Origin: an uncultured Chryseobacterium sp.
GTDB lineage: Bacteria > Bacteroidota > Bacteroidia > Flavobacteriales > Weeksellaceae
DNA: 64,000 nucleotides
Reading direction: 5' to 3'
Assembly: GCA_913778085.1 (NCBI GenBank)
Contig: CAJYXJ010000055.1
Coordinates: forward strand, 1-64,000
Under the pieces are notes generated by a model. It was not told where the DNA came from, did not search any database, and worked only from the letters and a program-made list of their open reading frames with translations. Made by a program: the position numbers and the translations under genes. Below are positions 53 to 64,000 of this stretch, one piece after another (position 1 is the stretch's first letter; every line of letters begins with the position of its first letter).

Positions 53-125
53 TGACCCGGCTGGGATTCGAACCCAGGACCCATACATTAAAAGTGTATT
101 GCTCTACCAGCTGAGCTACCGAGTC
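53..125 (-). tRNA. tRNA-Lys (anticodon TTT)
   Basis: The reverse complement folds as a 73-nt cloverleaf. The acceptor stem GACTCGG pairs with CCGGGTC, the anticodon stem is ATACA/TGTAT and the loop CTTTTAA carries anticodon TTT. The T arm has the usual GGTTCGAATCC. The 3' CCA is not encoded. It is identical to the tRNA-Lys at 312-384 and is the last of three tRNA genes on this strand. Confidence 0.97.
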
Positions 126-191
126 GGCCACAATTCATAATGATAAATATAACATTTCAATATCATTACCAATTATTTCAATTTTCTGCAG

Positions 192-274
192 TGCCTGCGA
201 CTGGACTCGAACCAGCACATCCTTAGGAAACCACCCCCTCAAGATGGCGTGTCTACCAATTTCACCACGCAGGC
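192..274 (-). tRNA. tRNA-Leu (anticodon GAG)
   Basis: The reverse complement gives an 83-nt class II tRNA with a long variable arm. The acceptor stem GCCTGCG pairs with CGCAGGC, the anticodon stem CCATC pairs with GGTGG, and the loop TTGAGGG carries anticodon GAG. It lies between two identical tRNA-Lys genes and is probably transcribed with them. CCA is not encoded. Confidence 0.96.
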
Positions 275-311
275 GTAAAAACTACAAAATTCCAGTAATT
301 TCTTTTGCTTG

Positions 312-384
312 TGACCCGGCTGGGATTCGAACCCAGGACCCATACATTAAAAGTGTATTGCTCTACCAGCTGAGCTACCGAGTC
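312..384 (-). tRNA. tRNA-Lys (anticodon TTT), first gene of the tRNA operon
   Basis: The sequence is identical over the whole 73-nt gene to the copy at 53-125, with the same acceptor, anticodon and T stems. It is the promoter-proximal gene of the Lys-Leu-Lys cluster. The duplicated gene suggests recent tandem duplication or dosage selection. Confidence 0.97.
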
Positions 385-56057: not shown

Positions 56058-57107
56058 TCAATCTTCGAGTTTTCCCTTTTCTTCTTTTTCTTCCTCTTTA
56101 TCGGGAAAAATCAGTGACAGGATTACCGAGATCACCAGAACCCCGCCTACGATCCCCAAGGATACCGGGGATGGAATATGGATCCATGGCGCGATCAGCA
56201 TTTTTACCCCGATGAACGTCAGGATGACAGCCAGACCGTAAGGCAGCTTGCTGAACATATGAATAAAATTCGCCAACAAGAAATACAGGGATCGTAATCC
56301 TAAAATCGCAAAAATATTCGACGTATACAAGATGAACGGATCATTGGAGATGGCAAAGATCGCCGGAATAGAATCCACTGCGAAAAGCACATCGGTGAAT
56401 TCGATAACTGCTACCACCACCAAAAGCGGGGTGGCCATTTTTATTCCGTTCTGAACGGTGAAGAATTTATCGCCGACATAATTGTCGGAAACTTTCCAGA
56501 ATCTTTTGATCAATCGTGCTCCTGCGGTATTGCTGTAGTCTTCGTCTTCGTCATCGTCACCGCCGCCCCAGGATTTGATTCCCGCGTACACCAGAAAGAA
56601 ACCGAACAGAGCCATCACAATGTTGATTTTTACAGGATGCCCGAATATATTCATTTCCGGCAGGTAAGTAAGATCAATCAGACCGACTCCTGCAAAAATG
56701 AAAATCGCCCTGAAGATCAATGCCCCGATAATCCCCCAGAACAGCACTTTATGGTGCAGATACTTCGGAACCTTAAAGAATCCGAACACCAGGATGAAGA
56801 CAAAGAGATTGTCTACCGAAAGCGCCTTTTCAATCCAATAGGCTGCCTGATATTCTGTAAATTTTGTTATAGCAATTTCATGGCTGCCAGGCCCCAGATC
56901 CGAGTTATATACCCAGTAAACAACACCGGAAAAGACCATGGACAGCGAGATCCATACAATTGACCAGATTGTGGCCTCTTTGGAAGAAACCTCATGACTC
57001 TTTTTGTTGAAAACCCCTAAATCAAGGAGCAACATGATAACTACCGTTACCGCAAATCCCCAAACCAGACCGGGATGAAGATCTAAAATACTCGTATTTT
57101 GTCCCAC
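56058..57107 (-). CDS. TerC/Alx-family membrane protein
   Basis: This 349-aa integral membrane protein has about seven to nine helices. Signature acidic patches are YWIEKALSVDNLFVF and VIEFTDVLFAVDSIPAIF, thought to bind or move metal ions (manganese in Alx-type relatives). A long acidic loop (GGGDDDEDEDYSN, about 195-210) and an acidic C-terminal tail flank the second half. Start is GTG. A plausible in-frame ATG is not available upstream. It is the last gene of the Ter/Tel unit, 155 bp after TerD. Confidence 0.92.
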   Translation of the reverse strand: MGQNTSILDLHPGLVWGFAVTVVIMLLLDLGVFNKKSHEVSSKEATIWSIVWISLSMVFSGVVYWVYNSDLGPGSHEIAITKFTEYQAAYWIEKALSVDNLFVFILVFGFFKVPKYLHHKVLFWGIIGALIFRAIFIFAGVGLIDLTYLPEMNIFGHPVKINIVMALFGFFLVYAGIKSWGGGDDDEDEDYSNTAGARLIKRFWKVSDNYVGDKFFTVQNGIKMATPLLVVVAVIEFTDVLFAVDSIPAIFAISNDPFILYTSNIFAILGLRSLYFLLANFIHMFSKLPYGLAVILTFIGVKMLIAPWIHIPSPVSLGIVGGVLVISVILSLIFPDKEEEKEEKGKLED

Positions 57108-57226
57108 TTTTTACTCTATGTTGTTATATGATAAAAGCAATAGCTGTACAGGATACAGATATTGCTATTGATTGATAGACCGATTTAAACTTTGGCTAAA
57201 GCCTTATTGAAAATCATCCTATACAA

Positions 57227-57244
57227 ACGGGCTAAAGCCCGTTC
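57227..57244. repeat. REP-type palindrome between terD and terC
   Basis: AACGGGCTAAAGCCCGTT is a perfect palindrome, preceded at 57192-57202 by a related GGCTAAAGCC. Such AAAGCCC palindromes look like repetitive extragenic elements. It may also affect expression of terC relative to the rest of the unit. Confidence 0.6.
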
Positions 57245-57262
57245 CTATCGATTCTGCCTATT

Positions 57263-57874
57263 CTATAAATATTTTTGCTTTACCGTTTCTATCGTTTCCT
57301 GCAGTTTTCTATCAGCGGTCGGATCTCCGATGGCGTTGAATTTCCATTCGCCGTTTCTTCTATAAAAAACGCCCATCACCATGGCAACATGGCCTTTGAA
57401 AGAAGCGTCGTTCGCGATGTCATATTTAGCGAAAACCTCTCTTACATTGGTTGGCGTTCCTTCATAAATCCTGATGGAAGCAAAAGGAATCGTCCCGAAA
57501 TCCTGGCCTTTGTAGCTATTCAGCACCAGGGCCACATGTTCTACGTTAGAATCCAGATTGCTGAAATCTACAGTGATTACTTCGTTATCCAGTCCGTCGT
57601 TTCCGTTTACGTCACCGGTTAAATCGTCCCCGCTGTGTCTTACGGCACCATTCTTAGACTTCAGGTTTCCGAAATAAATGATTTCTGTAGCATTTTTGTT
57701 AGCGTCATATAAAATACAGCTTCCGTCCAGGTCTACCGCCTCTCTGGTGATGCCTCCGAAAAATCCTTTTTTCTCAATTGCTCCCCAGTTGATTCCCACA
57801 CAGGCCTGAGAAAGCTGGGTTCCGTTTTCCTTGGTAAGGTTTATTCTCTGACCTTTTTGTAAGTTAATAGCCAT
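57263..57874 (-). CDS. TerD-family protein, distal copy
   Basis: This 203-aa protein has the TerD beta-sandwich with calcium-binding acidic stretches: GITREAVDLDGSCILYD (residues 43-60), DDLTGDVNGNDGLDNEVITVDF, and EHVALVLNSYKGQDF. It has the N-terminal NLQKGQRINLTKEN that is shared with the second copy. A C-terminal extension (FKGHVAMVMGVFYRRNGEWKFNAIG) is typical. TerD proteins are linked to tellurite, phage and colicin resistance and to membrane-associated stress complexes. Confidence 0.95.
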   Translation of the reverse strand: MAINLQKGQRINLTKENGTQLSQACVGINWGAIEKKGFFGGITREAVDLDGSCILYDANKNATEIIYFGNLKSKNGAVRHSGDDLTGDVNGNDGLDNEVITVDFSNLDSNVEHVALVLNSYKGQDFGTIPFASIRIYEGTPTNVREVFAKYDIANDASFKGHVAMVMGVFYRRNGEWKFNAIGDPTADRKLQETIETVKQKYL

Positions 57875-57930
57875 CTTTTTATGTTTAGTTTGTTAATTTG
57901 TTTTTTGCAAAGCATCAATATGATCTTCGC

Positions 57931-58857
57931 TTAGTTGTTATTTAAATTTAAATTCAGCATCGCACGGAGAATATTCGTTTCTTCGTTAATGTCGAACATT
58001 TTACTCATAATATCGGTATTTTCCAGATTTTTAATATAATCTTTCAGCACACCGGTTACCTGTTCGGGCAATACTTTTTTCCGTTCATTCATCGCTTCTT
58101 CAAGCTGCTCGTTTTTCCTTCTGAGCTGATAGACGATGGTTCCCCGGTTCGATTCATTGGGCGAAGTATCAAGTTTTTCCAGCTTTTTAGGCTCGAGCAG
58201 ATACATTTTCCGGCCTTCGACATCAAAGATAAAATAATCTTCAGACTGGAAAATTTTAAAAAGCTCATACTCGTTACCTGAAATCGCATAACCACAGACA
58301 AAACGGACTTTAAAATTCTGAATATTCAGCCGTCCCAGCAACTTTCTTTCGATCCGGTACTCCTGATACTGATAGGCCGGAAAGTTCCCGGATTTCAGCA
58401 GTTCTTCGTCAACATCCGGTCGGTAGAATTCAGCCGCATACTTTTTATGAAAATCCAGTATATGATCCCAGTTCAGCCGGAATTTATCTTCCGTAAGATC
58501 AGTGTACAGGTTTTTCAGCTGACTGGAAAAAGTACCGCTGTACATTTTCCGATCGGTCTCGAAACCGTCTGCCCGTTTTTCCTCAAATCCGGAGATGTAT
58601 TTGCTGTTGACCTCCATCTCGTTGATCACCGCCAGCATATCATTTTCCTTCTGCCTTTTGATCTTCGTGAGAAGCTCGATCAGGCTGTCGGTAAACTGCA
58701 GGTGAAAAAGTTCAAGCTTGCTGTAATCCAGCCCTTTGTTTTCCTGAAAAAGGTTGTGGATAATATCCGTCTTGATGTAGATGGAAATGATATCGACATT
58801 TTCAAAAAAATTCGCGAGAAGTTTAAGTTTCGTTAATCTTCTCTTGCTTTGGGACAT
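57931..58857 (-). CDS. Unrecognised Ter-cluster protein
   Basis: This 308-aa protein is not a family I recognise. It is mostly helical and charged: MSQSKRRLTKLKLLANFFEN at the N-terminus, LELFHLQFTDSLIELLTKI, and a Tyr-rich central region. A short Cys-containing beta segment (VRFVCGYAISG) precedes a coiled C-terminal segment (YQLRRKNEQLEEAMNERKKV). It has no signal peptide. A GTG 24 bp upstream is an alternative start. Being between telA and terD in a tight operon indicates a role in the same system. Confidence 0.75.
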   Translation of the reverse strand: MSQSKRRLTKLKLLANFFENVDIISIYIKTDIIHNLFQENKGLDYSKLELFHLQFTDSLIELLTKIKRQKENDMLAVINEMEVNSKYISGFEEKRADGFETDRKMYSGTFSSQLKNLYTDLTEDKFRLNWDHILDFHKKYAAEFYRPDVDEELLKSGNFPAYQYQEYRIERKLLGRLNIQNFKVRFVCGYAISGNEYELFKIFQSEDYFIFDVEGRKMYLLEPKKLEKLDTSPNESNRGTIVYQLRRKNEQLEEAMNERKKVLPEQVTGVLKDYIKNLENTDIMSKMFDINEETNILRAMLNLNLNNN

Positions 58858-58894
58858 GATATTTACGGCATCTTCATTCACTTTGCTGCTGCGG

Positions 58895-60067
58895 TTATCC
58901 TCTTACGTTGGCTTTCAGTTCGTGTTCCAGAGTCATCAGATCCTGATCCAGCTTTCTTCGTCCTTCGGCACCCTGCTTCTGGATCTGTTTTACTTCGTTC
59001 AGCGTATTGATCAGTTTTGAAGTTGTTTCCCTTAAAACGTCTACTGAAACGATGGTCTGTTCGTTGGCTCGTGCTACGTTCACGGAATTCTGCCCCAGAC
59101 GCTCAGCGTTTTTCCTAAGAATATCTTCGGTGGTTGCTGAAACCTTCTGCTGGATTTCAATACTCTGCTGCTGCCTGTACATTGCCACAGCCAGTGAAAG
59201 CTGATTTTTCCATAGCGGCAGTGTGGTCGTCAGGATCGTCTGTGCTTTTTCGGCAATCGAAACGTTGTTGTTCTGAACCAATCGGATCTGCGGAAGCGAC
59301 TGCATCATGATCAGGCGAACCACTTTCAGGTCGGCCAGTCTACGGTCCAGTCTTGCAATGAAATCCCTTTTGTCGGCAATCTGGTAATCCTGGAATTCCT
59401 GCGTATTGGCTTCCATGTGGGCAAGTTCGGCACCGGCCTTTTCGATCCTCAGGTTTCCGATAATCACAAGTTCCTCAATCTGTTTGATGGCGTTCACATT
59501 GCTATCGAAAATGGTCTGCAGAACGGCATTATCCTTCGTGGAAGTAATGATTCCTGCGTTTACTTTATAGGCAATCTGATCGATGTTGTTGATGATCTTA
59601 TCATATTTGGCAAATAAATTCTCAATCTGCGTCATCACACTTTTCATGAAAGGCAGTTTGCTTAAGAAGCTCTTGAATTTATTCTGATTCAATTCTTCAA
59701 CATCCACATAGTTCAGCTCGACCAATAGATTATTGATCAGCTCTCCCACTTCCCCGGAATTGGATCTCCTTACGTTTCCTAAGAAACTGTCGCTCTGGTT
59801 GGAAAGCGTTCTCTGAAGATCCGCCCCGAAGTTCACGATCGATCCAGGATTGGTTTCATCGATGGAATCGGCCAGGGCTTCATATTTCTGACGTTCTTCC
59901 GATTGCAGCTGGGTAAGGTTTACGTTTCCGTCACGGTCTACCAGAGGAGCCGGCGGCGTACTCGGTGTTGCCATACCTGGCGGCGGTGCCATCGGCGTCG
60001 GTTCGAAGGTTTTTAAGGGCTCGATGGATCCAAGAGGATCGATAGGTTGATTTTCCTGATTGTCCAT
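58895..60067 (-). CDS. telA: Toxic anion resistance protein, TelA family
   Basis: This 390-aa protein has a Pro-rich N-terminus (PLGSIEPLKTFEPTP, then MAPPPGMATPSTPPAP) and then the all-helical TelA domain, with long coiled segments (YKQQQSIEIQQKVSATTEDIL-like region), and KLINTLNEVKQIQKQGAEGR close to the C-terminus. TelA belongs to the tellurite resistance set and is thought to associate with TerD. It begins 6 bp after the TerD stop codon. An upstream TTG overlapping that stop is less likely. Confidence 0.93.
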   Translation of the reverse strand: MDNQENQPIDPLGSIEPLKTFEPTPMAPPPGMATPSTPPAPLVDRDGNVNLTQLQSEERQKYEALADSIDETNPGSIVNFGADLQRTLSNQSDSFLGNVRRSNSGEVGELINNLLVELNYVDVEELNQNKFKSFLSKLPFMKSVMTQIENLFAKYDKIINNIDQIAYKVNAGIITSTKDNAVLQTIFDSNVNAIKQIEELVIIGNLRIEKAGAELAHMEANTQEFQDYQIADKRDFIARLDRRLADLKVVRLIMMQSLPQIRLVQNNNVSIAEKAQTILTTTLPLWKNQLSLAVAMYRQQQSIEIQQKVSATTEDILRKNAERLGQNSVNVARANEQTIVSVDVLRETTSKLINTLNEVKQIQKQGAEGRRKLDQDLMTLEHELKANVRG

Positions 60068-60073
60068 GGTCAA

Positions 60074-60628
60074 TTATTGATAGATTGCTACAAATTTTTC
60101 AAGGCCTTCCCTTTGTCCGGAACCTACAGCTTCAAACTTCCACTCTCCGTTTCTGTTGTAAATCCTTCCGAATTCCACTGCGGTTTCGATGGAGAAGTCT
60201 TCATCCAGTTCGTATTTAAGAATTTCTTCGTTGGTATCGGTATTGAAAATTCTGATGAATGAGTTTCTTACCTGTCCGAAGTTCTGTCTTCTTGCATCGG
60301 CCTCGTGAATCGTTACTACTACGGTAATCTCTTTTACGGCAGGATCAATTTTAGTTAAATCGATTTTAATCTGCTCATCATCCCCGTTTCCATCTCCTGT
60401 CAGGTTATCCCCAGAGTGGATCACGGCTTTATCCGGAGATTCCAGGTTGTTGTAAAAGATAAAGTGGTTATCGGAAACGAGCTTCTTGTTTTCGCCCAAT
60501 AAAAATAAGGAAGCATCAAGATCAAAAGCCGTTCCCGTCGATGTATTATTGGTATCCCATCCTAAACCTACGGTGAATTTCGGTGCATTTATATTTTCTC
60601 TCTGTCCTTTCTGTAAGTTAATAGCCAT
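60074..60628 (-). CDS. terD: TerD-family protein, proximal copy
   Basis: This 184-aa protein contains the TerD beta-sandwich with calcium-binding segments GTAFDLDASLFLLG and DNLTGDGNGDDEQIKIDL. It shares the N-terminal MAINLQKGQR with the distal copy and ends FEAVGSGQREGLEKFVAIY. It overlaps the PRTase-like gene by 11 bp, and the TelA gene starts right after it. The two TerD copies likely form hetero- or homo-oligomers at the membrane. Confidence 0.95.
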   Translation of the reverse strand: MAINLQKGQRENINAPKFTVGLGWDTNNTSTGTAFDLDASLFLLGENKKLVSDNHFIFYNNLESPDKAVIHSGDNLTGDGNGDDEQIKIDLTKIDPAVKEITVVVTIHEADARRQNFGQVRNSFIRIFNTDTNEEILKYELDEDFSIETAVEFGRIYNRNGEWKFEAVGSGQREGLEKFVAIYQ

Positions 60629-61442
60629 AATATAATTCGGTTTGTGTTAAAGTGTTTATGTTGTTTTCGTATTCTTTTATTAAATGATAATTGTTGCTGA
60701 TGGCCAGCTCCAGGAGCTGATCCATCTGCTCTTTCTTTACTTTAGACGTAAGATACTCAAAATTACCTGAATCCAGGCCTAAAATATATTTTACGATCCT
60801 TGTATTGAACTGAAAGCTTGGTTTTTCCATAACTTCCGTGATATGCTGAACATTTTTCACCGCATAATAATTGAAATAGTTTTCAATTTTGGGATCGAGT
60901 TCAAAATTCATCAGCTCTGCATAATACATGAATAAAAAATCGGCTTCCACCTGGTATTCATCGAGAATTTTGTTCACGGTAAACTCATGGCTTCCGGTAA
61001 TTTTAATATCATCAATAAAAATACAAAGTTTTCCCCGAAGAAAATCCTTATCCAGGTAATAAGTATCGTTGGCAATTAAATTTTTACGGTCTTCGAAGCT
61101 CAGGTTCCCGTAATCTGTCGTATAAGTGTGGTTCCTGTTGATTTTTGAGAGAATGCTCGATCTTTTCCCTTTCTGAAACAGATAGAAATCCAGATGCTTC
61201 TTAAAGTAAAAGCAGAGGAAATTGGAAGCGGTGGGAATGGCCATGTAAGGGCTCGGCAGCACCACGATCTCTTTATCGGTATTTAAAACTGATTCATTTT
61301 CAGAAATAAATCCTACAAACAGGTCTTTGGCAAATTTCTCAGCATAGGAGGTATCGCCATATTTAAAAAAGCTGTATTCGCCGGGCGAAAATGTAAATTC
61401 ATCGGCTGAATGAATATGGTGTAAGCTGTATCTTTTGTTCAT
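60618..61442 (-). CDS. Phosphoribosyltransferase-like protein of the Ter cluster
   Basis: This 274-aa protein has the phosphoribosyltransferase PRPP-binding loop: LCIFIDDIKITGSHEFT (about residues 139-155), with the Asp-Asp pair and the KITGSHE turn. Ahead of it are IVVLPSPYMAIPTASNF, and a Tyr/His-rich central part. PRTase-like proteins occur in Ter gene clusters that are proposed to make a nucleoside-like metabolite. Start is 2 bp after the HAD gene stop, so translational coupling is likely. Confidence 0.8.
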   Translation of the reverse strand: MNKRYSLHHIHSADEFTFSPGEYSFFKYGDTSYAEKFAKDLFVGFISENESVLNTDKEIVVLPSPYMAIPTASNFLCFYFKKHLDFYLFQKGKRSSILSKINRNHTYTTDYGNLSFEDRKNLIANDTYYLDKDFLRGKLCIFIDDIKITGSHEFTVNKILDEYQVEADFLFMYYAELMNFELDPKIENYFNYYAVKNVQHITEVMEKPSFQFNTRIVKYILGLDSGNFEYLTSKVKKEQMDQLLELAISNNYHLIKEYENNINTLTQTELYYGY

Positions 61443-61444
61443 CG

Positions 61445-62119
61445 TTATATTTTGTGGGTAATAAGGTGTGCATTGAAGCCGAAATCTTTTGCGCCTTTGT
61501 AGTCGGCTATCGGATTGTCGCCGATGTGGAGAATCTGCTGTAAGTCCAGTTCAGGGTTTTTGATGAGGCTTTTTACCTGCTGAAAGATCTTCGGATCCGG
61601 TTTGGAACAGTTGGTCTCATCGGAATAGATATGGAAATCGATATACTGATCTAGGTTTTCACTAATCAGGAATTTCCTCATGGTTTTCCCTTTGATGAAT
61701 CCTGTATTGCTCAGGATGTTAATGGTTTTCCCCTGATTTTTGATTTCATCAAAAAACCGGTGCAGGTCTTCAAAAATCACTACAGGTCTGTATTCAAGGA
61801 ATAGATCTTCGCTTTTCTGGTAAAACTCGTTCAGCTGATCTTTACGGATTGTTTTTAAATCTATGTCAAGCGCATTTAAAATCAGCAAATAAATTTCAAA
61901 GGTATCTACGTTTCCGCCAATGACTTCATTGATGGTGTTGCACAGGTCATCGTAGTACTTTACAACTTTCGCTACTTCATCAAGCGGCTTATCCACCTCA
62001 AAAAACGAAGCGAACAGCTCCACTCTTTTTGCTTTGAATTCAGGGTGAGATTTTATTAAGGTAAGCCACAGATCAAAAGAAAAATGGGAATGACTGCGGA
62101 TGTCTATATCTGTTTTCAA
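61445..62119 (-). CDS. HAD-family hydrolase of the Ter cluster, first gene
   Basis: This 224-aa protein has HAD motif I as FSFDLWLTLI (nucleophile Asp16), motif II as INILSNTGFI, motif III Lys in SKPDPKIFQ and motif IV GDNPIADYKGA, so a phosphatase is expected. The only in-frame start at the N-terminus is TTG, directly before MKTDIDIRSH as read. It heads the operon of HAD, PRTase, TerD, TelA, unknown, TerD and TerC genes. HAD and PRTase together fit handling of a ribose- or nucleotide-linked compound. Confidence 0.85.
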   Translation of the reverse strand: MKTDIDIRSHSHFSFDLWLTLIKSHPEFKAKRVELFASFFEVDKPLDEVAKVVKYYDDLCNTINEVIGGNVDTFEIYLLILNALDIDLKTIRKDQLNEFYQKSEDLFLEYRPVVIFEDLHRFFDEIKNQGKTINILSNTGFIKGKTMRKFLISENLDQYIDFHIYSDETNCSKPDPKIFQQVKSLIKNPELDLQQILHIGDNPIADYKGAKDFGFNAHLITHKI

Positions 62120-62469: not shown

Positions 62470-63408
62470 ATGAAAAAAATTTATCTGTTAGCCTGTGCTT
62501 TTCTTGCAGGACTTTCTCAGGCACAAACGCCGGTTTATGTTCCTGCCTCAGGATTGGTAGCGTGGTGGGGATTCAGCGGAAATGCCAATGATTCCAGCGG
62601 CAACAACAATACCCTTACCGTAAACGGTGCTACCCTTACTGCCGACCGTTACGGAAATGCCAATTCTGCTTATTCCTTCAACGGGACCAGCAGCTACTTA
62701 ACCAACAGTGCCTTATCATTTGCCTTCTCTCAATCAGGAGCCCACAGCATCTCTTTCTGGATCAACAGAACGGGAACTTCCGATGGAGTAGCGATGATGA
62801 GCGGATCCAATGCTTCTTCCAATTTTATCTGGCTGATCCAGTCGGACACTTCAAAAATCGTTTACGGAACCAACAAGCAGGGAGCATCATGGACGTGGGT
62901 AAACAGCCCGACTTATGCGGCAGGTTCCCAATGGGACCATTATGTTGCGGTATACAACAACCAGAGCATGACACTTTACAAAAACGGCGTATCGGTAGGT
63001 ACCAATACCAATGCCTATACCGGTACCACACAGGCTGCCTTGCCGATCTATATCGGAAGAGCCATCAGCGGAGGTTATATTGCGGCCAATATAGATGATG
63101 TAGGGATCTGGAGCAGGGCACTTACCGCAGGAGAGATCAACCAGCTTTACAGCTCCACCCTTTCTACCAAGGAGGTAAAAACACAAACGGCTGCAGGCAG
63201 CATCGCTCCGAATCCGGCCAAAGATTATATCGAACTTCATGCCCCGATCAAAGGCTCAAAAGCTTATACCATTACTGATGCCACCGGAAGACTTTTATCC
63301 AAAGGACAGGTTTCAGACAAAGAAAAAGTAGATGTATCCGCCCTTTCCAAAGGAATTTATTTTATGGAAATCGAGGGAGTGAAAACTTTAAAATTCATTA
63401 AAGAATAA
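62470..63408 (+). CDS. LamG/concanavalin A-like secreted protein with T9SS type A sorting domain
   Basis: This 312-aa protein has a signal peptide (about 1-20, ending SQAQ), a LamG jellyroll domain (about 30-225, SGLVAWWGFSGNANDSSGNN, HSISFWINRTGT, AAGSQWDHYVAVYNN, SRALTAGEINQLY) and a C-terminal T9SS type A sorting domain (SIAPNPAKDYIEL to the end). It is expected at the cell surface. It may bind a glycan. Confidence 0.9.
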   Translation: MKKIYLLACAFLAGLSQAQTPVYVPASGLVAWWGFSGNANDSSGNNNTLTVNGATLTADRYGNANSAYSFNGTSSYLTNSALSFAFSQSGAHSISFWINRTGTSDGVAMMSGSNASSNFIWLIQSDTSKIVYGTNKQGASWTWVNSPTYAAGSQWDHYVAVYNNQSMTLYKNGVSVGTNTNAYTGTTQAALPIYIGRAISGGYIAANIDDVGIWSRALTAGEINQLYSSTLSTKEVKTQTAAGSIAPNPAKDYIELHAPIKGSKAYTITDATGRLLSKGQVSDKEKVDVSALSKGIYFMEIEGVKTLKFIKE

Positions 63409-63508: not shown

Positions 63509-63536
63509 TTGATTTTTAAAAATTTTGCTAATTTCG
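63509..63536 (+). promoter_or_regulatory. Promoter of the EF-G-like gene leader
   Basis: TTG (63509-63511) is separated by 17 bp from TAATTTCG (63529-63536), a -7 element one base off TAnnTTTG. The expected start of transcription, near 63543, precedes the leader ORF. Confidence 0.55.
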
Positions 63537-63556
63537 CAACCGATTAACAATCAGTA

Positions 63557-63643
63557 ATGTCAACAAAAATGATAAATATTATAACTTTAAGCAATCCTAT
63601 CAGAGCAGTGTACTTTGGTAGCACTGAATATTTATCTGAATAA
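63557..63643 (+). CDS. Leader peptide ORF, 28 codons
   Basis: The ORF reads MSTKMINIITLSNPIRAVYF followed by GSTEYLSE, and has a second in-frame Met at codon 5. Its last codons (TATCTGAA, 63633-63640) are exactly complementary to the loop and descending arm of the following terminator (TTCAGATA, 63687-63694). It is therefore a candidate for ribosome-controlled attenuation. Confidence 0.55.
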   Translation: MSTKMINIITLSNPIRAVYFGSTEYLSE

Positions 63644-63675
63644 CGATCGACCTTTATACAACAACAATATAACGA

Positions 63676-63703
63676 AGGCCTGTCTGTTCAGATAGGTCTT
63701 TTT
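63676..63703 (+). terminator. Attenuator hairpin before the EF-G-like gene
   Basis: AGGCCTGTCT and AGATAGGTCT form a 10-bp stem (two G-T pairs) around GTTC, followed by TTTT. It lies between the leader ORF and the downstream gene, about 155 bp before its start, so it would end transcription early unless disrupted. Confidence 0.7.
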
Positions 63704-63859
63704 GCTACCCTACTTTCAGCACATCCTTCCCAAGAGCTGCCTGAAATTTTACCGGAAAAACAGAATTCCATTCTTTCTGACCTTCAGATAAGAACAGGAG
63801 ATATCTTTGCTCTGCCGTTAAAGATGCAGCCTTAAAATCAAACATTTAAAACAAACAAA

Positions 63860-64000
63860 ATGAAATACAACACACGGAATATAGGGATTATAGCACACGT
63901 CGATGCAGGAAAAACCACCTTAACGGAACGGCTGCTTTATTATACGGGGATGATCCACAAAATAGGAAATGTAGACGAAGGAAACACCACAATGGATAAA
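63860..64000 (+). CDS. Elongation factor G-type GTPase (partial, runs off the window)
   Basis: The first 47 codons encode [20 protein letters not shown] and [20 protein letters not shown], then GNTTMDK. G1 is AHVDAGKTT and the switch-like GNTTMD is typical of EF-G and of TetM-type ribosome protection proteins. The rest lies beyond the window, so these cannot be told apart. Many Bacteroidetes carry a second EF-G-like copy. The presence of a leader and terminator upstream fits regulation by translation state. Confidence 0.8.

Follow-up and report, generated by a model that had tools for sequence, protein, structure and literature searches.

A conserved leader with the architecture of a ribosome-mediated transcription attenuator lies upstream of a second EF-G gene in Chryseobacterium

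The window analyzed here is a 64,000-nucleotide stretch of DNA from an uncultured member of Chryseobacterium, a genus represented in soil, on plants, and in hospitals; the window ends within a 100,192-base contig that belongs to a 4.63-Mb genome. Three consecutive tRNA genes lie at the far end of the window (53–384, minus strand). Closer to the region of interest, a tellurite-resistance-type gene cluster (56058–62119, minus strand), whose genes we take to be TerD/TerC-like, is a neighbor in most of the named loci with which the window was compared. Between this cluster and the leader is a gene for a 312-aa secreted-protein-like product (62470–63408, plus strand), with relatives in only 4 of 64 loci and at varying positions. 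The last part of the window carries a promoter-like sequence, a short leader open reading frame, an intrinsic terminator, and the start of a gene for a translation GTPase, laid out as follows:

63509–63536, plus strand: promoter-like TTG-17-TAATTTCG, read base by base (TTG at 63509–63511, a 17-nt spacer, TAATTTCG at 63529–63536); labeled Bacteroidota type after the promoter consensus that we assume for that phylum
63537–63556, plus strand: 20-nt spacer CAACCGATTAAMAATCAACA between the promoter box and the leader ATG, strongly conserved
63557–63643, plus strand: leader ORF of 28 codons, MSTKMINIITLSNPIRAVYFGSTEYLSE, with ATG at 63557 and TAA at 63641–63643
63571–63579, plus strand: region 1 (codons 5–8), GATAAATAT, complement of region 2 and possible anti-antiterminator
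63578–63607, plus strand: codons 8–17 (IITLSNPIRA), under protein-level selection, a candidate slow or arrest site
63617–63623, plus strand: 5' strand of helix P1, GGTAGCA, with partner TGCTACC at 63703–63709
63628–63636, plus strand: region 2, ATATTTATC, whose partner is region 1 or, in part, the terminator side
63633–63640, plus strand: 5' strand of helix P2, TATCTGAA (codons 26–28), the exact complement of TTCAGATA at 63687–63694
63649–63655, plus strand: 5' strand of helix P3, GACCTTT, just past the leader stop, with partner GAAGGCC at 63674–63680
63674–63701, plus strand: intrinsic terminator hairpin with a stem of 12 pairs (63674–63685/63690–63701), loop GTTC, and a T run to 63703
63703–63709, plus strand: 3' strand of P1, TGCTACC, 3' of the T run
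63860 (ATG) to the window end at 64000, plus strand: gene for an EF-G paralogue of 688 aa, identified by protein model and domains, ending at 65926 on the contig

An earlier, sequence-only reading of this DNA had described the promoter, the 28-codon leader, the terminator, and the 8-bp complement between the end of the leader and the terminator; base-by-base inspection found all four at the coordinates it gave, together with P1, P3, and the complementarity of regions 1 and 2 within the leader, which it had not described. The promoter assignment is supported by comparison, as a TANNTTNG box occurs at the expected place in 84 of 85 loci vs. 1.9% of shuffled sequences, with a TTG 17 to 20 nt 5' of the box in 81 of the 85. 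The interval from box to ATG is 20 nt in 79 of 84 loci, with per-column identity mostly above 0.9. Shine-Dalgarno sites are, as general background, weakly used. A scan for promoters of the E. coli (sigma-70) type gave no support at 63509–63536, and its number of sigma-70 hits equaled that in shuffles. Likewise, the terminator at 63674–63703, with a computed energy of −14.9 kcal/mol, is absent from the list produced by a consensus terminator scan. RNA fold z-scores were −1.49 (weak) for 63543–63720 and −2.81 for 63603–63703.

The gene that follows encodes a second EF-G. It had been called TetM-type in the earlier description, an identity that is rejected by the model scores: the protein scores above the cut-off of TIGR00484, the EF-G model (805.9 bits vs. 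659.4), falls short of that of NF012153, the Tet ribosomal-protection model (359.4 vs. 775), and carries Pfam EF-G domains I–V. It also fails the model of the Bacteroides-type EF-G2 (NF058620; 414.2 bits, cut-off 1000) and that of tet(Q) (178.2 bits, cut-off 1425). Another EF-G, 48% identical to this spare copy, is encoded elsewhere in the same genome and is flanked by ORFs reading as ribosomal proteins S12, S7, and S10, which identifies it as the housekeeping copy of the str operon. Every one of the 51 complete spare EF-G proteins, taken from the fetched loci for motif comparison, has intact GTPase motifs. Outside the genus, the nearest proteins among 395 genomes of the phylum are 47–52% identical to the spare EF-G, and no donor was found, since the five outside matches whose context was inspected sit in str operons. 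In the 94 genomes with a spare EF-G, the gene has an in-frame stop in three and gives a partial match in another three, with the leader intact in those; with six of 94 damaged or partial, the gene is therefore dispensable and decays in some species.

In the genomes searched, the leader and the spare EF-G are strictly linked and confined to one genus. A search of 297 genomes of the family located the leader peptide in 85, all of them Chryseobacterium, and at each of these 85 loci a spare EF-G (78–100% identity) begins 219–493 nt past the leader ATG. Viewed from the gene, a spare EF-G is present in 94 of 174 genomes of the genus, about half, and the leader or RNA element accompanies it in 94 of 94: 85 genomes with the leader plus nine others, all nine with the RNA element. 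An RNA model, applied with stricter filters, matched 23 of 395 genomes of the order, all belonging to Chryseobacterium out of 108 genera represented, and a degenerate DNA pattern run against 84,980 species genomes gave 63 matches, all titled Chryseobacterium; these 63 overlap partly with the other genome sets and were kept out of the counts. The same neighbors lie on both sides across 64 loci (the window and 63 named ones), and the leader/EF-G pair is thus an old single-site resident in the genus rather than a recent mobile gene. A repeated or mobile leader was considered and rejected: the window's genome holds one leader, and the leader, the 601-bp window end, and the DNA past the terminator are each single copy. 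The gene 3' of EF-G is sulfate-transporter-like and presumably SulP.

Conservation in relatives was the check that the sequence-only reading had proposed for its leader ORF and pairing, and leader, terminator, and pairing are conserved in all 85 fetched loci. Leader size is 28 codons in 84 of them and 27 in one. The peptide matched none of the NCBIfam or Pfam families at E values up to 10. Values of pN and pS were taken from 600 random pairs of 84 leaders, with codons 2–100 of the EF-G gene as a control (pS 0.586, pN/pS 0.10) in which damaged EF-G rows were kept. Protein-type selection is confined to codons 8–17 (pS 0.351, pN 0.062, pN/pS 0.18). On either side of this stretch the pattern differs: synonymous change is almost nil at codons 2–7 (pS 0.007), pN/pS is 0.93 at codons 18–24, and codons 25–28 are identical in 84 of 84 leaders, with zero changes. 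Of the 17 degenerate leader codons with a conserved residue, 13 use one synonym at a frequency of at least 97%, vs. 4% of 226 EF-G codons (Mann-Whitney p 1.3e-7, with codons treated as independent); this synonym analysis used 84 leaders, leaving out the 27-codon one, and omitted EF-G rows without the expected ATG or with an early stop. The split in pN/pS along the leader therefore indicates that its middle matters as peptide and its ends as RNA, which is the pattern expected of an attenuator whose leader has a defined stall site. P14, R16, A17, and V18 are invariant in 84 of 84 leaders.

Two other readings of the leader bear on the same codons. One is that the leader reports on the supply of isoleucine or of branched-chain amino acids, as the window's leader has Ile at codons 6, 8, 9, and 15. 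Codon 15, however, is Val in 52 of 84 leaders, Ile is frequent in A+T-rich DNA, and the downstream gene is a translation factor at every locus examined, so that we regard an amino-acid attenuator as very improbable. The other is that the peptide is a small protein with a function in trans, like that reported for the leader peptide peTrpL of Sinorhizobium. Conservation of codons 8–17 at the protein level is what such a role would produce, yet in the genomes searched the leader occurs only beside the EF-G paralogue, and the RNA-type freezing of the codons on either side of this stretch suggests action in cis; a trans-acting peptide, too, is accordingly given very little weight.

Folding and comparison agree on an antiterminator made of three helices, P1, P2, and P3, that uses leader codons and is mutually exclusive with the terminator: positions 63674–63680 of the hairpin are also the 3' strand of P3, and 63687–63694 are also the 3' strand of P2. 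P2 is the pairing noted in the earlier description and comprises 13 pairs in the window's fold. Pairing statistics, like those for the ribosome model and for regions 1 and 2 below, refer to the 78 distinct sequences among the 85. In this set, 97.3% of antiterminator cells are paired, falling to only 38–45% when the antiterminator is slid by 1–3 columns, and double-sided changes number 67 cells, compared with 27.0 in shuffles, of which none of the 500 reached 67. Compensatory changes lie in two of the helices. P1 takes the form GGYAGCA with TGCTRCC, pairing GGTAGC with GCTACC in 33 and GGCAGC with GCTGCC in 52 of the 85 loci, with 0 mismatched, and one P3 pair is U-A in 45, C-G in 30, and U-G in 3 of the 78. 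On a tree of the 85 EF-G genes, the P1 partners change at least twice each, giving one supported independent pair, and the P3 partners change four and five times, giving two, counts too few for significance in either helix. Two of five covariation measures were at the level of shuffles (3 pairs vs. 2.8 and 16 types vs. 16.0). The terminator is paired in 98.9% of cells, and its hairpin and T run are retained in all 78 aligned sequences. The helix of regions 1 and 2 is paired in 99.1% of cells with no covariation and is partly formed in modeled free RNA (mean 0.49), and it is possible that this pairing serves as an anti-antiterminator in untranslated RNA.

Since the 3' strand of P1 is made past the termination point, P1 forms only in readthrough RNA. 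That a strand present in such RNA alone should be both conserved and co-changing speaks for a switch that acts beyond intrinsic termination, for example on mRNA processing or stability or on translation of EF-G. Such a switch seems improbable to us, as the hairpin and T run retained throughout the alignment are those of a standard terminator, and the EF-G start lies 68–337 nt 3' of the motif end, at a distance that varies by locus and is a poor fit to masking of the start site.

To model how ribosome position affects the choice between terminator and antiterminator, the leader was masked as far as 15 nt beyond each P-site codon, in line with the general footprint of a ribosome, and the pairing was computed. 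With the P-site at codon 22 or later, all 78 of the 78 sequences are predicted to favor the terminator. When synthesis has just reached the last base of the T run, the antiterminator is predicted to be favored in 23 of 78 with the P-site at codon 21, in 27–46 with the P-site at codons 1–20, and in 9 with no ribosome. Once seven further bases are made, completing P1, these numbers become 63–71 of 78 without a ribosome or with one at codons 1–17, and 40–42 with one at codons 18–20. For the window's own sequence at the T run, the modeled value for the antiterminator is 0.87–0.91 at codons 16–20. Support for the switch was weaker in a variant model in which pairing across the ribosome was permitted, and shuffling of the leader barely alters the terminator in modeled free window RNA (0.944 vs. 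0.954, with 38 of 300 as low). In these models, then, the switch is clear on its terminator side; on its antiterminator side it is plausible, and borderline when the decision falls.

Taken together, we propose that this element is a ribosome-mediated transcription attenuator controlling the spare EF-G, a reading to which we assign a probability of about 80%. The attenuator architecture and logic set out in the sequence-only reading are thereby supported, by the conserved leader and pairing and by the predicted dominance of the terminator in 78 of 78 sequences from codon 22 onward, with mixed predictions on the antiterminator side at the T run. A ribosome finishing the 28-codon leader would cover the TATCTGAA strand, and the hairpin at 63674–63701 would form, so that RNA polymerase stops and the gene is off. 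A ribosome held upstream, at or before about codon 20, would leave this strand free to pair with the 3' arm of the terminator, while the stretch after the leader (P3) would pair with the 5' base of the terminator; with the antiterminator formed, polymerase would continue into the EF-G gene and the gene would be on. Inhibition of elongation, for example by an antibiotic, would then induce the spare EF-G. Termination and readthrough in cells, and induction by slowing of ribosomes, are what this model would predict, and the spare EF-G may substitute under inhibition of EF-G or of elongation.

Where the ribosome would pause is suggested by the leader itself. Because I-I-T-L-S-N-P-(I/V)-R-A is under protein-type selection, a candidate slow or arrest site can be placed near codons 13–17, and on this sequence evidence the stretch is probably a programmed one, at which arrest is perhaps drug dependent. 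Alternatively, the peptide may have no arrest activity and the leader may act as a general sensor of elongation speed, any slowing letting polymerase run ahead. The leader has no run of a single amino acid, and the modeled switch is set by ribosome position alone, both of which suit such a sensor; codons 8–17, however, are conserved as protein despite synonymous change, and the four residues P14, R16, A17, and V18 admit no variation at all among the leaders. We consider a speed sensor a real contender that is nevertheless unlikely, and favor the attenuator with a specific stall site.

Attenuator leaders are familiar from drug-resistance genes and amino-acid operons. The statement in the sequence-only reading that no leader of this kind was known for such a gene was too strong, as leaders of tet(M), tet(Q), and fusB have been published. 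One of these is the tet(M) leader of Tn916 (Su et al. 1992), described as acting by transcription attenuation, which likewise combines a leader, a terminator, and a downstream translation GTPase (PMC5418344); tet(M), however, encodes a ribosomal-protection protein on a Firmicutes mobile element, whereas the gene here encodes EF-G at a fixed chromosomal locus. The tet(Q) leader of Bacteroides CTnDOT (Wang et al. 2005) also lies 5' of a translation GTPase in the Bacteroidota, and its attenuation is described as translational (PMC5418344), whereas here it is transcriptional by proposal and the tet(Q) protein model failed. In fusB of pUB101, drug-inhibited ribosomes are described as stalling on a leader, so that fusidic acid induces expression by translational attenuation (PMC12493156); this is a leader-switched factor tied to an inhibitor of EF-G, but FusB is a resistance factor rather than EF-G, is controlled at the level of translation, and belongs to Staphylococcus. 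Bacteroides, like Chryseobacterium, has a second EF-G (fusA2/EF-G2), described as low until stress and as activated by the DNA-binding regulator BT4338 (PMC6989115); "leader" and "attenuat" are absent from the available text of that paper, and the EF-G2 model failed here. Among Rfam families, the best match of the element is the Bacteroid-trp leader RF01692, on the same strand and over nearly the full model, and at 22.5 bits vs. a gathering score of 49, with an E value of 4, this is resemblance and not membership. The literature searched, which covered few subscription journals, yielded no attenuator leader that controls an EF-G gene and no attenuator leader in Chryseobacterium. On the reading proposed here, a conserved attenuator of known logic has a new kind of target and a new leader peptide. 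If the proposal is true, it would explain when and why Chryseobacterium uses its second EF-G, and an attenuator on a duplicate translocase would offer a test bed for nascent-peptide reporting on elongation.

A more speculative extension, which we hold only tentatively and would not bet on, is a self-monitoring EF-G circuit, in which the arrest motif would be especially sensitive to loss of EF-G activity, for example through fusidic acid or argyrin, and would activate a spare EF-G whose drug pocket is altered. The sequence HLEVTLEK occurs in all 51 complete spare EF-Gs, vs. HL[DE]II.DR at the same place in the eight EF-Gs used for comparison, of which four are known to lie in str operons. L461 of S. 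aureus EF-G is described as a position of the fusidic-acid pocket (PMC12493156), and by alignment on the GELHL motif the HLEVTLEK stretch includes S. aureus position 461; the difference is thus a pointer to EF-G inhibitors. The argyrin pocket was tried as a second pointer and set aside: in the alignment, some of the pocket positions described in PMC3438169 are changed in the spare EF-G relative to P. aeruginosa EF-G1, and some also in the window's own housekeeping EF-G, so that this pocket is uninformative.

Directly after its TAA, the leader frame reopens at about 63644–63838 (plus strand), for 63 codons that extend beyond the terminator. This candidate continuation ORF was rejected, because its sequence and length differ in other loci, including one with 90% EF-G identity, and the reopening is attributed to chance. 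The spacer between the attenuator and EF-G falls in length steps of about 71, 150, 185, 235, and 290 nt.
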